Shown one piece after another: positions 192 through 22,995 of a stretch of DNA of 64,000 nt. A program made the position numbers and the translations under genes. The notes under the pieces were generated by a model. That model saw nothing but the letters and a program-made list of their open reading frames with translations. It was not told the DNA's origin and did no database searches. Positions within the stretch are counted from its first letter, which is position 1. Each line of letters opens with the position of its first letter. Origin of the DNA: Pirellulales bacterium (GTDB lineage Bacteria > Planctomycetota > Planctomycetia > Pirellulales > Thermoguttaceae); NCBI GenBank assembly GCA_016931995.1, contig JAFGDS010000030.1, positions 1 through 64,000 of the forward strand, written 5' to 3'.

Positions 192-1226
192 TCAGGAACC
201 GTTATTCGTCCAATACCCCTCCTCCCCCGTGACCGGCCGGTTGAGGAAGATCGTGTAGATGAACGCCGTGTAGCCCAACACCAGCGGCATGCCGACCAGC
301 GCGATGACGAGCATCACCCAGAGCGTCGGCGGCGTGGACGAGGCGTTGTGGATCGTGAGGCTGTGGGCGAGATCCACGCGCGAGGGCACGAGCCGCGGGT
401 AGAGGCCCACGCCCATCAGACCGACCATCGAGGCGATCATCGCCGCCGAGGCCAAGAGCGTCCACACCGCGCGGCCCGCGCGATTGGCCAACGGCACGGC
501 CACCGTCGACGCCAAGAGCGCCGGCAAGAGCAGCCAGAACCACGCGCTGGCGAGGATGCCGTCCAGGAGAAACGGCGCGGTAAACAGAGTGGCGGACGTC
601 GCGGCGACGTACAACACGACGGTGGCCATCCACAGGCCGGGGATCCATCGCCGCATCCGCTCGCGTAGGGCCCCCACGGTCCGCACGGCCAGGAACGCGG
701 CCCCGTGCATGGTGAAAAGGACGAGGGTCAAGACGCCCACGAGCAGCGCGTAGGGATTCAGCAGGGACAGGAAGGGCGCCTTGACGGGTCCGGTCCCGTC
801 CAGAGGCAGCCCGCGCAGGACGTTGCCCACGGCAACGCCGAACAAGAGCGCGGCCGCGAGGCTGCCCAGGCCGAACGCGATATCCCACGCCCTGCGCCAG
901 CCGGGCCGGTCCACCTGCCCGCGGAATTCCAACGACACGGCTCGAAAGATGAGCGCCACGAGAACGAGCATCATGGCCAGGTAGAAGCCGCTGAAGACCT
1001 CGGCGTAGACGATCGGAAACGCGGCGAACAGGGCCCCGCCGGCCGTGATCAGCCAGACTTCGTTTCCGTCCCACACCGGCCCGATGGCCGCCATATGGAC
1101 GCGCCGCTCCCGTTCGTCGCGGGCCGCCAAATGCAGCACGCCCACCCCCAGATCAAACCCGTCCAACATGGCGTAGCCGGCCAGGAGCACGCCGATCAAT
1201 AAAAACCAGGCGGTATTCAGGTCCAT
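192..1226 (-). CDS. cydB: Cytochrome d-type quinol oxidase subunit II
   Basis: A 344-residue, multi-helix membrane protein of the CydB/CioB family, the second subunit of the bd-type quinol oxidase that reduces oxygen to water with quinol electrons without pumping protons. The N-terminus MDLNTAWFLLIGVLLAGYA followed by MLDGFDLGVGVL is the characteristic first-helix signature (GYxxLDGFDLG), and GPVWDGNEVWLI follows at about residues 49-60. Length is normal for the family (about 335-380). It lies downstream of cydA on the same strand, but about 400 bp of repeat-rich DNA separates the two genes, unlike the tight coupling usual for cydAB. No strong ribosome binding site is seen before the ATG. Confidence 0.96.
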   Translation of the reverse strand: MDLNTAWFLLIGVLLAGYAMLDGFDLGVGVLHLAARDERERRVHMAAIGPVWDGNEVWLITAGGALFAAFPIVYAEVFSGFYLAMMLVLVALIFRAVSLEFRGQVDRPGWRRAWDIAFGLGSLAAALLFGVAVGNVLRGLPLDGTGPVKAPFLSLLNPYALLVGVLTLVLFTMHGAAFLAVRTVGALRERMRRWIPGLWMATVVLYVAATSATLFTAPFLLDGILASAWFWLLLPALLASTVAVPLANRAGRAVWTLLASAAMIASMVGLMGVGLYPRLVPSRVDLAHSLTIHNASSTPPTLWVMLVIALVGMPLVLGYTAFIYTIFLNRPVTGEEGYWTNNGS

Positions 1227-1629
1227 GGGTCAACTCGGTTCGGGAGAAAGGAACTCACCACGGAGACGCGGAGGCACGGAGAAAGAAAAAGGGGAAGAAA
1301 CCACGGATGAACACGGATGAACACGGATGGGAAAAATGAGGCAAGGGAACCGCAGATGAACGCGGATGGACGCAGATGAGGTGGGGGCTGGGGGGATTGG
1401 GGATTTCGGGATTCCGGAATTTCAGTAGTCCCAGGTTTGCATTCACGAGTCATCCTGAGAGGAGCGCAGGATCTCGGCGGCCATGGAGATTCTTCGGTCC
1501 GCGCAGAATGACCATGTCGGGTTTCGGAAATACTTGGGACTACTGGATTTGGGGTGTCGGCCTGTCGGACCGCGGACCCCGAACTCCATTGGTGTTCATT
1601 CGCGTGCATTCGCGGTTGCCTTCCGTTCC
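1227..1629. repeat. Repeat-filled gap between cydA and cydB
   Basis: No gene is seen here. The left side carries tandem phrases such as ACCACGGATGAACACGGATG (about 1300-1330) and a CACGGAGACGCGGAGGCACGG-like stretch (1259-1283). About 1590-1617 carries the inverse phrase GTTCATTCGCGTGCATTCGC. A GGGATTGGGGATT-type G-rich stretch is at about 1385-1410. A CATCCTGAG...AGGATCTC element lies at about 1452-1475. Translation in any frame gives low-complexity peptides such as VFIRVH, so these are not genes. The same families recur at 2985-3300, 17.2 kb, 20.1 kb and 43.8 kb. Confidence 0.85.
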
Positions 1630-2973
1630 TCAATGCCCGTTTGGTGAGCCACTCGCCGGGAAACCTCGTTTGATCTTCTTGACAACCAGGAATACGTACA
1701 GCGCGCCGAGCAGGAGGTAGATCGCGCTGAACAAGATGATCGAGAAGAGCACCTCGCCGCCGGCGACGTTCGCCGAGAGGGCTTGGTCGGTTCGCAGGAC
1801 GCGGTAGACCACCCAGGGCTGACGGCCAACCTCGGCGGTGATCCATCCCAACTGGCAGGCGATCAGCGGTAGCGGGATGGCCAGCACCAGCGCCCAGAGA
1901 AACCAGCGAGCCCGTCGAAGCCGACCCAGCAGGGCCAAGAGCACGCCCAAGCCGGTCATTGCGATGAACAGCGTGCCCAGCCCCACCATCGCGTGGAACG
2001 ACAGGAACGTCAGCGCGAACGGCGGCGTCGGACGTCCCGCGGCCCGCAGGTCTTCCATGCCCGGCACGAAGGCGTCGGCGTCGCCGTGGGCCAACACGCT
2101 CAAGAGGCCCGGCAGGCCGACGGCGTATTCCAACCGGGGCGGATTGTCCCGCGGCAAGCCGACGACGACGAGCGGAGCATTTTCCGTGCCGTGGACGAGC
2201 CCTTCGATCGTGGCGAGTTTTTCCGGCTGGGTCCGGGCGACTTGCCGGGCGTGCCAATCGCCTGTGGGAAAGAGCGATGCCAACGAGAAGATCAAGCCCG
2301 CCACCAGCGCCAGCCGCAGCGTTCGCGCCGCGGCCCGATTCTCCGGGTTCTTCAACATCATCCACGCGACCACGCCGGCCATGAAAAACGCCCCGCACGT
2401 CCACGACGCGACCATCGTGTGCAGGAACCGCGGCAGGGTCGAGGGATTGAACACGGCCTCGGTGAAGCTGGTGAGTTCGGCGCGGCCGTTGCGCAGCGCG
2501 TATCCGGCGGGCGTCTGCTGCCAGGAGTTGGCCACGAGGATCCAGAAGGCCGACAGCGTCGCGCCCAGGGCGACCATCAAAATCGAGAACCAGTGCACGC
2601 CCGGCGACACCCGGCCGCGACCGAAGAGGTACAGCCCCAGGAACGTCGATTCCAGGAAGAACGCGAAGACGGCCTCGGCGGCCAGCGGGGCGCCGAAGAC
2701 GTCGCCGACGAACTTCGAGTATTCCGCCCAGTTCGTGCCGAACTGGAACTCCATGACGATGCCGGTGGCCACGCCCACGGCGAACGTGAGCCCCAGGAGC
2801 TTGCCGAAGAACGCCCCGGCCCGGGCGTAGTCCTCGTCGCCGCGTCGCCAGCCCAGCCACTCCAGCCACACGATCAGATACGCCAGCCCGATCGACAGCG
2901 GCGGGAAGAGGAAATGGAAGCCCACGGTCAGGGCGAACTGAATCCGCGAGAGCAACAGCGGGTCGAGTTCCAT
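1630..2973 (-). CDS. cydA: Cytochrome d-type quinol oxidase subunit I, short Q-loop type
   Basis: A 447-residue integral membrane protein that carries the hemes and the quinol site of a bd-type oxidase. Visible landmarks are RIQFALTVGFHFLFPP at the N-terminus with the heme b595 ligand candidate His20, FLHTMVASW in the middle with a heme b558 ligand candidate His, SFHAMVGLG with the candidate Met ligand, and GWITAEVGRQPW near residue 375. The region between helices VI and VII is short compared with the 520-residue E. coli protein, so this belongs to the short Q-loop (CioA-like) group. It is followed by cydB after a repeat-rich gap; no cydX or cydCD is nearby. The oxidase probably serves low-oxygen respiration or oxygen detoxification. 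Confidence 0.96.
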   Translation of the reverse strand: MELDPLLLSRIQFALTVGFHFLFPPLSIGLAYLIVWLEWLGWRRGDEDYARAGAFFGKLLGLTFAVGVATGIVMEFQFGTNWAEYSKFVGDVFGAPLAAEAVFAFFLESTFLGLYLFGRGRVSPGVHWFSILMVALGATLSAFWILVANSWQQTPAGYALRNGRAELTSFTEAVFNPSTLPRFLHTMVASWTCGAFFMAGVVAWMMLKNPENRAAARTLRLALVAGLIFSLASLFPTGDWHARQVARTQPEKLATIEGLVHGTENAPLVVVGLPRDNPPRLEYAVGLPGLLSVLAHGDADAFVPGMEDLRAAGRPTPPFALTFLSFHAMVGLGTLFIAMTGLGVLLALLGRLRRARWFLWALVLAIPLPLIACQLGWITAEVGRQPWVVYRVLRTDQALSANVAGGEVLFSIILFSAIYLLLGALYVFLVVKKIKRGFPASGSPNGH

Positions 2974-3312
2974 CGGTCAGTCCTTAAAGTTCACCATAGA
3001 GGCACGGAGACGAAGAGAAGAACGAAACCACAGATGAACAAAGATGAACACAGATAAACACAGATAATGGAGTTGGCGAAGGGAGCAAACCGCGAATGAA
3101 CGCGAATGGACGCAAATGGGGGTTCGGTGGTCGGGAGGACGGCCTCTTCAATCCCCAGCCCCCAGTCCCTCGTCCCCACCACATCTGCGTCCATCCGCGT
3201 TCATCCGCGGTTCTGTTACCTCTATTTCCTCCCATCCGTGTTCATCTGTGGTTTCCTTCCCTTCTCTCCGTGCCTCCGTGTCTCTGTGGTGATTTCCCGT
3301 TTTCCTCCCTTC
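2974..3312. repeat. Concentric imperfect inverted repeat between cydA and the ZIP transporter
   Basis: This gene-free stretch is built from three phrase types arranged symmetrically. Outermost: AGGCACGGAGACGAAGAG (about 3000-3017) against CTCTCCGTGCCTCCGTGTCT (about 3265-3290). Next: ACAGATGAACAAAGATGAAC (about 3030-3050) against CATCCGTGTTCATCTGTGG (about 3234-3252). Innermost: AACCGCGAATGAACGCGAAT (about 3088-3110) against GCGTTCATCCGCGGTT (about 3195-3211). The centre (about 3120-3180) holds CCCCAGCCCCCAGTCCC-like sequence. The same layout appears in part at 1252-1620. Confidence 0.85.
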
Positions 3313-4137
3313 CTATCCAAACGCCACGTCGAGGATCATCATCACGGTGAATCCGCCGAGGGTGCCCAGTGTGGCGAAGTCGCTGTAGCCGTTGGTTTGG
3401 GATTCGGGTATGAGTTCCTCGATCACCACGAAGATCATCGCTCCCGCGGCAAAAGCCAAGGCGTAGGGCAAAAGCGGCGTCGCCCAGAGGACGAGCCACG
3501 CGCCCAAGACGCCGGCGGCCGGCTCGACCATGCCCGAGGCCTGGCCGTACATGAAAGCCTTGAACCGGCTCATCCCCTCGCGCCGCAGGGGCACGGACAC
3601 GGCCAACCCCTCGGGGAAGTTTTGCAGGCCGATGCCGATGGCCAGGGCGATGCCGCCCAGGAGCAATTGCGACGTCTCGACCGGCCCGGTGGCGTGGGCC
3701 ACCGCCCCGAACGCCACGCCGACGGCGAGCCCCTCGGGAATGTTATGCAACGTGATGGCCAGGACCAGGAGCACGCTTCGCTGCCACGAGGTGTGGATGC
3801 CTTCGGCCTGCGACGTATCCAGCCCGGCGTGCAGGTGCGGCAGGATCTTGTCGATCACGTACAGCGCCAGTCCACCGGCCAAAAACCCGACCGCGGCGGG
3901 CATCCACGTCCCGTTGGACATTTCGATTGCCGGGGCCAAGAGCGACCAGAAGCTGGCGGCGATCATCACGCCGGCCGACATGCCCAAGAGGCCGTCCAGC
4001 GCCCACTGGCTGAATCGCTTGGTGACGAAGACGCAGGCCGCCCCCGTGGCGGTGACGAACCACGTGAACAAGGTGGCCAACAGGGCGAGCCAAACGACGT
4101 TTTTCCCCTGGCAAAAGTCGAGCAAGGCTTCTCGCAT
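3313..4137 (-). CDS. ZIP-family divalent metal transporter
   Basis: A 274-residue membrane protein with about eight hydrophobic segments. It carries the paired ZIP metal-site motifs: HNIPEGLAVGVAFG (about residues 131-144) on helix 4 and LQNFPEGLAVSVPL (about 169-182) on helix 5, plus EELIPES near the C-terminus. These identify the ZIP (Zrt/Irt-like) superfamily, closest in style to the bacterial GufA/ZupT group, which import Zn2+ or other divalent metals. The His of the first motif is replaced by Gln in the second (QNFPEG). No metal-responsive regulator is adjacent, and metal specificity is not inferable. Confidence 0.92.
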   Translation of the reverse strand: MREALLDFCQGKNVVWLALLATLFTWFVTATGAACVFVTKRFSQWALDGLLGMSAGVMIAASFWSLLAPAIEMSNGTWMPAAVGFLAGGLALYVIDKILPHLHAGLDTSQAEGIHTSWQRSVLLVLAITLHNIPEGLAVGVAFGAVAHATGPVETSQLLLGGIALAIGIGLQNFPEGLAVSVPLRREGMSRFKAFMYGQASGMVEPAAGVLGAWLVLWATPLLPYALAFAAGAMIFVVIEELIPESQTNGYSDFATLGTLGGFTVMMILDVAFG

Positions 4138-7286: not shown

Positions 7287-7413
7287 CATGCACTGCTGGG
7301 CAAGCCAGCAGTGGCGCCCGGCGCTTTCCCGCCATGCCTGCTGGGCAAGCCAGCAGTGGCGCCCGGCGCTTTCCCGCCATGCCTGCTGGGCAAGCCAGCA
7401 GTGGCGCCCGGCG
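7287..7413. repeat. Three tandem 45-bp repeats with palindromic core
   Basis: Three head-to-tail copies start at 7287 (46 bp, one extra base), 7333 and 7378; the third is intact for about 36 bp. Each contains the palindrome TGCTGGGCAAGCCAGCA followed by GTGGCGCCCGGCG. The array fills the gap between the acetylesterase and the GH106-like gene. Frames are open through it only because unit length is a multiple of three; the resulting peptides have no family resemblance. Confidence 0.9.
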
Positions 7414-7566
7414 ACGGCGGGGGGGCGCTTTTCGTATTCCGACGGGCAAACCGGCAATTTGCGTCAGTCGAGGACGGCAAGCTTGGCGCGGCGGGCTGGA
7501 CGAAACAAGAATAACGGCCAACCTCGCTCCCGCCCCCTGAAGGAACCCCGACACAGGAGATCGCCC

Positions 7567-20091: not shown

Positions 20092-20474
20092 GATTCGCCG
20101 CGCTGGGACGAAGGGAAAGGGGAGTTCACCACGGAGACACGGAGGCACGGAGAGGAGATACGACAACCTCCCCTCTCCCGCCTCGCGGGAGAGGGGTCGC
20201 ACGGTGAGGGGACCTTCGCGCCCCACGAACCGTCGGGTCTCCGCCCGCGCGCCGTTCCCGCCACCCTTTCGCGCTTTCGTTCTTTCGCGCTTTCGTGATT
20301 CTCTGGGATCGACGGTGCCCAGCCGATCCACGCTTGCGGTGCTCGGCAACGGATTGTGCCGACGGGATCACGAGCGCACGAAAGGACGAAAGCACGAAAA
20401 CGTGAAAGTCACGAAGGGTGGGGCGTATCCGCCCGAACTTGCATCGGTTCGTGGCGTCGCGCAGCGCGAGTCTC
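20092..20474. repeat. Gap downstream of mutS with two inverted phrase families
   Basis: A copy of the CACCACGGAGACACGGAGGC family lies at 20128-20147, followed by CCTCTCCCGCCTCGCGGGAG at about 20169-20190. Then TTTCGCGCTTTCGTTCTTTC (about 20266-20285) faces its inverse CACGAAAGGACGAAAGCACG (about 20377-20396). The inverted phrases pair over about 40 bp each with a roughly 75-bp spacer. No protein gene is seen in the interval. Confidence 0.75.
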
Positions 20475-21708: not shown

Positions 21709-22995
21709 TCATCCCTTCCACCGAAACTTCACGCGTCCGCCGACGAGGACCACGTCGGCGCGGCCTTGGAGCTGCCAGCCGGCGAAGGGGGTGTTGCGGC
21801 TTTTCGAGCGGAATCGGGCGGGATCGACGGTCCAGCGGACCTCCGGGTCGATGATCGTCACGTCGGCGTCGGCGCCCACGGCCAGCGTGCCTTTGGGGAT
21901 GCCGAGGATCCGGGCGGGGTTGATCGTCATCTTCGCCAGGGCGGTGGACCAATCGAGGTGGCCCGGCGCGATCAATCGCGTGATGACCAGGCCCAGCGCC
22001 GTCTCGAGCCCGACGATGCCGAACGGGGCGCGGTCGAGCTCCTGCATCTTCTTCTCGGGCGCGTGCGGGGCGTGGTCCGTGGCGATCACGTCGATCGTGC
22101 CGTCCTTCAGGCCGTCGATGCAGCCGGTGACGTGGCCCTGACCGCGCAGCGGCGGGTTCATTTTGAAGTTCGCGTCGAACGTGCGGAGGCACTCGTCGGT
22201 GAGCGTGAAGTGGTGCGGGGTCACCTCGGCCGTGACGCGCACACCTCGGGCCTTCGCCCGGCGTACGGCATCCACGCTGCCGCCGGTTGAAACGTGCATC
22301 ATGTGCAGGCGTCCGCCGATCGCCTCGGCCAGGGCGATGTCGCGGGTGGTCATCACGTCTTCGGCGGCGGGCGGGATTCCGCCCAACCCCAGCACCAGCG
22401 CGGTCAGCCCGTCGTGCATCACGCCGCCCTGCGTGAGCTCGGGGATCTCGGCGTGGCTCAGCACGGGCTTGTCGAACATGAGGCAGTACTCGAGCGCGCG
22501 GCGCATGAGTTCGGGGTCGGACACGGGCGCGCCGTCGTCGCTGAAGGCCACGGCGCCGGCCTGGACCAACTGGCCGATCTCGGCCAGCTCCTTGCCCTGG
22601 CGATTCTGACTGACGCAGCCGATCACAAACACGTTGGCGTTGTCGGCCCGGGCGGTTTGGCCGCGAATGAACGCGACGGTGCCCTGGGTGTCGATGGGCG
22701 GGTCGGTGTTGGGCACGCAGGCGATGGAGGTGAACCCGCCGGCCAGCGCGGCGGCCGTGCCGGTGGCGATCGTCTCGTCCTCCTCGCGCCCCGGCTCGCG
22801 CAGATGCACGTGCATGTCGATGAGCCCCGGCGCGACGATCTTTCCCACCGCGTCGATCACCTCATCCGCCCGGCCCTTGTCGGCCGGAACGTCCAAGGCG
22901 GCGATCTTGCCGTCCTCGACGAGGAGGTTCATCACCCGATCGATCTTCTGGCTGGGATCGATGACGCGGCCGTTTTGGATAAGGATTCGAGGCAT
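21709..22995 (-). CDS. pyrC: Dihydroorotase
   Basis: A 428-residue amidohydrolase that closes carbamoyl-aspartate to dihydroorotate, the third step of UMP synthesis. Metal ligands are visible in DMHVHLREPG (His62 and His64), with VLSHAEIPEL, MMHVSTGGSVDAVRRAK and VIATDHAPHAPEKK (catalytic Asp) further on. The position of the carboxylated lysine in many amidohydrolases reads AVAFSDDGAPV, as in class I bacterial dihydroorotases that use Asp instead. Length is typical. pyrB lies upstream on the same strand, separated by a restriction-modification pair and a small gene. Confidence 0.95.
   Translation of the reverse strand: MPRILIQNGRVIDPSQKIDRVMNLLVEDGKIAALDVPADKGRADEVIDAVGKIVAPGLIDMHVHLREPGREEDETIATGTAAALAGGFTSIACVPNTDPPIDTQGTVAFIRGQTARADNANVFVIGCVSQNRQGKELAEIGQLVQAGAVAFSDDGAPVSDPELMRRALEYCLMFDKPVLSHAEIPELTQGGVMHDGLTALVLGLGGIPPAAEDVMTTRDIALAEAIGGRLHMMHVSTGGSVDAVRRAKARGVRVTAEVTPHHFTLTDECLRTFDANFKMNPPLRGQGHVTGCIDGLKDGTIDVIATDHAPHAPEKKMQELDRAPFGIVGLETALGLVITRLIAPGHLDWSTALAKMTINPARILGIPKGTLAVGADADVTIIDPEVRWTVDPARFRSKSRNTPFAGWQLQGRADVVLVGGRVKFRWKG

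Follow-up and report, generated by a model that had tools for sequence, protein, structure and literature searches.

The concentric inverted repeat at positions 2985-3300 of the window (the whole stretch of 64,000 nucleotides analysed here) probably consists of three or more stacked, gene-less relics of selfish inverted-repeat elements, each lying within the arms of the previous one and all within an intergenic gap. Its three layer types, A, B and C, are the arm pairs of gene families encoding GxxExxY proteins, and we regard the nest as the remains of a variant form of such elements that is not described in the literature searched.

Make-up of the nests and order of their layers

An inverted-repeat search of the window resolved 2985-3300 into three concentric inverted pairs whose layers face inward (Table 1). 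The outermost, layer A, consists of tandem 8-bp units CACGGAGR preceded by TTCACC, the middle layer B of tandem 10-bp units CACGGATGRA preceded by AACC, and the innermost of the three, layer C, of the 10-bp phrase CGCGGATGRA, i.e., the layer B unit with CGC for CAC. The paired segments are 79% complementary in A (2991-3018 with 3265-3292, including a perfect 12-bp core), 89% in B (3020-3046 with 3233-3259) and 88% in C (3088-3121 with 3179-3212). The 316-nt strand folds into one long hairpin of -170.9 kcal/mol, a stability reached by 0 of 100 dinucleotide shuffles (mean -106.9 kcal/mol, z = -11.5). Pairing and folding thus confirm the three phrase families mirrored around a centre that the first-pass annotation had described. 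The 7-bp units of the single central arm are of the phrase type found around S23-like genes of the same genome (the arms of L215).

The nest is intergenic, between the cydA-like gene and the transporter gene, and does not lie in a 23S rRNA helix. From their sequences, we take the neighbouring genes to be those of cytochrome bd oxidase subunit I (cydA), cytochrome bd oxidase subunit II (cydB) and a ZIP-family metal transporter. Neither the open reading frames nor a family search revealed a GxxExxY gene inside either nest of the window, and the nest is therefore read as a relic and not as an intact element. The second nest, at 1252-1620, has A, B and C arms in this order on its left, only a C-type arm on its right (B and A arms are absent there) and more repeats inside, and the segment 1250-1402 matches part of 2985-3300 at 80%; the earlier remark that part of the same order appears here was borne out.

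Table 1. Positions of nest layers and neighbouring genes in the window
Feature	Position	Strand	Basis
cydB-like neighbouring gene	192..1226	-	ORF
Second nest, layer A left arm	1255..1282	+	direct reading, phrase scan
Second nest, layer B left arm	1299..1330	+	phrase scan, inverted-repeat search
Second nest, layer C left arm	1348..1379	+	phrase scan
Second nest centre, G-rich tandem stretch resembling one S23-type arm	1380..1416	+	direct reading
Second nest, further inner inverted repeat (arms 1418-1436 / 1532-1550) around TCATCCTGAG...CTTCGG repeat	1418..1550	.	inverted-repeat search; inner repeat by direct reading
Second nest, C-type right arm	1586..1617	-	phrase scan, inverted-repeat search
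cydA-like neighbouring gene, flanked by the two nests, one on each side	1630..2973	-	ORF
Layer A left arm, TTCACC and degenerate 8-bp units CACGGAGR	2991..3018	+	inverted-repeat search, phrase scan
Layer B left arm, AACCACAGATGAA..., 10-bp units	3026..3066	+	inverted- and direct-repeat search, phrase scan
Layer C left arm, AACCGCGAATGAACGCGAATGGACGCAAATG	3088..3121	+	inverted-repeat search
Central single arm, 7-bp units AATCCCC AGCCCCC AGTCCCT CGTCCCC	3150..3177	-	read directly in sequence
Layer C right arm	3179..3212	-	inverted-repeat search
Layer B right arm	3233..3259	-	inverted-repeat search
Layer A right arm, ending in GTGGTGA	3265..3292	-	inverted-repeat search
ZIP-family-like metal transporter, neighbouring gene	3313..4137	-	ORF

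The phrases recur throughout the genome (5.43 Mb), in which the 10-bp pattern had 379 matches compared to 5 for its reversed control. With two mismatches allowed, the 8-bp pattern had 516 matches against 313 in the control, a high background, and one-mismatch matching was therefore used for the cluster counts. Order and orientation were counted in fetched stretches of this genome, mostly picked for holding phrases, so that the counts address order and orientation (for which they are unbiased) and not abundance. Orientation was convergent in 71 of the 72 clusters with at least two phrases; where layers shared a side, A was the outer one relative to a 10-bp layer in 40 cases and the inner one in a single case, and B lay outside C in all 26 cases. 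Counted by locus, the layer order was followed 21 times versus once (p = 1e-5). Order and orientation, for which genome-wide randomness had been named as the opposite outcome, are clearly non-random. Layer A and a 10-bp layer occurred together in 23 clusters; a rough calculation, in which element number and intergenic share were assumed, gives 0.3-2% for random landing inside an A element. Left and right arms were more alike within than between loci in layer C only (p = 0.004; A, 0.32; B, 0.18).

Cluster centres also hold other recurrent repeats: an inverted repeat of the GTCATCCTGAGCGAAGCGAAGGATCT type (window 1440-1530, L015, L021, L032, L036, L045, L049, L093) and a GTGCCACTGGC...GCCAGTGGCAC repeat (L031, L052, L091).

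Genes between the arms

In two wide-centred clusters, a GxxExxY protein is encoded between the arms, and these genes are clear members of TIGR04256 / PF13366 (PDDEXK_3; E 1e-44 and 3e-41). The family search identified six GxxExxY loci in the genome (protein of ~120 aa), and tandem short-unit arms adjoin all six genes, in inverted arrangement at five of them. The arms are the A phrase at C28:21000, the C phrase at C33 (C33:8134) and the E phrase (CGCGGAG) at C46, whereas phrases that are not cluster phrases occur at C28:1886 (CGCGGAGACGCCAAG) and C77 (CACGAAAGGACGAAAG, the gene being frameshifted); at C141 the arms are C-like (CGCGAATGAACGCGAATA) and the downstream arm is direct, not inverted. 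Flanking of GxxExxY genes by the B phrase was seen only outside this genome, at loci such as L232 from other members of the phylum. The arms of the window nest therefore have GxxExxY-flanking counterparts for every layer, A and C in the same genome and B in other genomes. Beside the C141 gene lies an inverted-repeat copy that is gene-less but retains the first codons of the gene, which suggests that gene-less forms derive from internal deletion.

The PD-(D/E)XK catalytic residues D69, E79 and K81 are invariant in five GxxExxY proteins of this genome. The AlphaFold2 model (pLDDT 85.8; one of five models was confident) had its nearest match in the Cas4-like SSO0001 (Z 9.5), followed by restriction enzymes and Holliday-junction resolvases, matches that are evidence for the fold and not for the function. 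The predicted PD-(D/E)XK fold would fit an active nuclease. A TnsA-like identity of one GxxExxY protein was discarded because the Pfam match was weak and below the cut-off, and the PADLOC defence models gave no match for two GxxExxY proteins.

We compiled 110 GxxExxY loci; at least 80 came from species-representative genomes of Sphingomonadales, Verrucomicrobia, Chloroflexi, Geobacter, Bacteroidota, Cyanobacteria, Gemmatimonadetes, Acidobacteria and others, and 30 more from the same phylum. The 250 bp upstream were compared with the reverse complement of the 250 bp downstream (score of at least 12), and in the control the downstream 250 bp were reversed without complementing (a direct-repeat control was confounded by tandem and nested copies). 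Among the matches listed, an inverted arm pair was present in 103 of 110 loci compared to 3 of 110 controls, i.e., the gene lies between arms across phyla. Arms of 8- or 10-bp units, as called by a motif detector and likewise among the matches listed, pointed inward on both sides at 78 of 108 loci and outward on both sides at 12, with about 5% in distant control stretches.

The arm phrase follows the protein lineage. A second GxxExxY subfamily, recognised by homology to the C33 protein, has 10-bp GATG arms. Of the 124 proteins placed on a tree, 26 form one clade (SH-aLRT 99), 25 of which have 10-bp arms, and 8/9-bp (GAG/AAG) arms occur in 94 of the remaining 98 rows. Unit lengths come from an automatic call, and calling noise may explain some of the exceptions. 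Arm type changes 5 times on the tree, compared to 25.9 after shuffling (0 of 500 shuffles as low). The family is present in 185 of 392 sampled genomes of the phylum, of which 120 have both gene and 8-bp phrase, 65 the gene only, 21 the phrase only and 186 neither; the odds ratio of 16 is reliable for direction only, because these related genomes are non-independent. Viral contigs yielded a single GxxExxY match, which makes phages an unlikely main home for the family. In Sphingomonas and relatives (L107-L113, L117-L120, L122, L123), a GxxExxY element occupies a constant site between fabD-like and fabG-like genes (by sequence presumably fabD and fabG), and such an element can thus also be inherited for long times.

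Genes for S23-like four-helix-bundle proteins also lie between inverted short-unit arms (GGGATTT, GTCTGGT, TAGTTGT and others; L213-L215, L218, L260-L288). The genome contains six S23-like genes (TIGR02436), four of them clearly flanked by inverted tandem arms with other phrases, and phylum-wide an inverted arm pair was found at 25 of 28 S23-like loci versus one control, mostly with 7-bp units. These loci widen the element class and weaken the case for the encoded protein as the necessary mobiliser: S23-like proteins are non-nucleases and occur in arms of the same design, so the protein between the arms need not mobilise them.

Orthologous gaps in congeners

We compared the cheD-cheC and cusB-cusA gaps in 11 genomes of one genus in the window's phylum. 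The cheD-cheC gap is without arms in G089, G141 and G411, contains a GxxExxY gene between CACAAAG arms in G377 and G401 and a decaying, internally deleted GxxExxY copy in G347. In G335, G412 and G236, an S23-like gene (broken in places) is accompanied by a residual outer right arm, in G068 it is present without this arm, and around the S23-like gene of this gap no outer left arm is visible; G172 retains a gene-less two-layer remnant.

The cusB-cusA gap is empty in G335, the first gene's stop overlapping there with the start of the second. A GxxExxY gene with ACCGCAGAG arms is present in G236, G377, G068 and G141, and a different one with AAACCACAGATT arms in G401, G411 and G347. The AAACCACAGATT-arm element is internally deleted in G172, reduced to a gene-less nest in G089, and in G412 a GIY-YIG gene is nested inside it. 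A comparison by eye of empty and filled cusB-cusA sites, which belong to different species, showed no target-site duplication. At L294, in the same gap, the GIY-YIG gene has its own inverted repeat (GTCATTCCCGCATGC...GCATGCGGGAATGAC) within the GxxExxY remnant.

The comparison of orthologous gaps, proposed with the first-pass annotation, thus revealed empty, filled, replaced, internally deleted and nested states at two gaps, and elements decay there to gene-less arms. Inverted ends together with internal deletion of a gene-bearing parent were seen at L224, at L296 and in the inverted repeat beside the C141 gene. Nesting in the congeners (an S23-like gene before a residual outer arm in cheD-cheC, a GxxExxY remnant occupied by a GIY-YIG gene in cusB-cusA) supports central insertion.

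Origin of the nests and related systems

An intact element has about three tandem 8-10 bp units as its left arm, then a single GxxExxY gene of ~125 codons and finally that arm in inverted orientation. The nuclease may recognise the tandem units of its own arms and nick or cut DNA, upon which host repair or replication would copy the element to another gap. Insertion might favour the middle of a hairpin already present, and landing there would yield the fixed outside-to-inside order, with A arriving in a first wave, B in a second and C in a third. Once the gene is lost, the arms would remain; these can form a hairpin and may be harmless in an operon. That the nuclease drives insertion is an inference. 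A more general proposal, which we regard as possible and somewhat short of probable, is that these are phylum-spanning mobile elements free of a transposase, in which one small PD-(D/E)XK nuclease recognises its own inverted tandem arms, spreads the element into gaps, prefers the centres of resident copies and leaves ordered nests that record successive invasions layer by layer.

The first-pass annotation had suggested growth either by successive insertion into the centre or by copying as a unit, and only the former is supported, by the fixed layer order and by the nesting in the relatives' gaps. If complete nests were copied ready-made, with their order fixed once, the recurrence of A, B and C in this order at several loci would be accounted for, as would the 80% match between the two nests of the window. 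As the main route this is very unlikely, because one- and two-layer loci are common (many with A alone, B alone or C alone), inter-layer spacers look unrelated by eye and elements are nested within elements at single gaps of congeners. Service at the RNA level, in which hairpins of intergenic transcripts are kept as terminators, stabilisers or RNase III sites, would be in line with the stable 316-nt hairpin, with the cutting of hairpins of 23S rRNA intervening sequences (IVS) by RNase III (PMC4990558) and with a heptanucleotide-repeat family of Geobacter that was interpreted as regulatory RNA (PMC2700814). We regard it as improbable, since congeners differ in the presence of elements at one and the same gap, an Rfam scan of the window gave no match, and left and right arms of A and B within a locus match no better than the family consensus, which indicates that the phrase and not the pairing is kept.

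A different possibility is that the proteins are passengers: an unrelated transposase or reverse transcriptase would move the arms in trans, and the GxxExxY, S23-like and GIY-YIG proteins would merely bind the arms or their transcript. Three unrelated proteins within similar architecture are what would be expected in this case, and the mobility of the S23-bearing IVS stem-loops is unexplained (PMC4990558). A shared mobiliser would, however, require neither that the arm phrase tracks the GxxExxY lineage nor that phrase presence tracks the gene, and we consider passengers rather unlikely.

Compared with known systems, the relics of inverted-repeat elements in the window resemble REP/REPIN sequences, which comprise many dispersed gene-less inverted pairs and few copies flanking one cognate RAYT gene, in that gene-less inverted pairs occur along with few gene-flanking copies. 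However, the protein here has a PD-(D/E)XK fold (PF13366) instead of an HUH Y1 transposase, no Y1 gene was found in the arms, and the arms are tandem 8-10 bp units, not palindromes. As in MITEs, there are gene-less, internally deleted derivatives of a gene-bearing parent whose inverted ends they match, but the gene-bearing copies encode only the PD-(D/E)XK-fold protein and no transposase, and the arms are internally tandem. The closest precedent is the S23-bearing 23S rRNA IVS, a selfish stem-loop bounded by inverted repeats that replaces the loop of an existing hairpin, carries one small gene and decays (PMC4990558). The nests differ in lying between genes and in having arms built of short tandem units, and the gene is mostly of the nuclease type; the S23-like copies found in the cheD-cheC and cusB-cusA comparisons are not in rRNA genes either. 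Similar, too, are multicopy intergenic repeats of Geobacter metallireducens, of which one family has four heptanucleotide repeats and one has ends forming inverted repeats, but they are read as regulatory or left without assigned function, and the passages considered make no link to GxxExxY or S23-like genes (PMC2700814).

In the literature searched, no paper ties GxxExxY, TIGR04256 or PF13366 to inverted tandem arms or dispersed repeats (one mentions a CRISPR-like locus in which a reverse transcriptase has a GxxExxY gene as its neighbour), and as far as that literature goes, the association of the gene with inverted arms has not been described before. The GxxExxY family, widespread across phyla and with no role described in these papers, thereby gains a testable one, namely to be encoded by a small selfish element. 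If the proposal is true, the CACGGAG and CACGGATGAA repeats, which are widespread in intergenic DNA, would be arms of GxxExxY elements, and nest order could be read as a relative clock of invasions. The match between phrase and lineage supplies protein-arm pairs on which the possible recognition of tandem DNA units by a very small nuclease can be studied.

Elsewhere in the window, partnerless single A and C phrases occur at 20130-20153 and 22662-22679, and a tandem repeat of ~45 bp (translated CWASQQWRPALSRHA) at ~7288-7440 forms the opening of a long reading frame.
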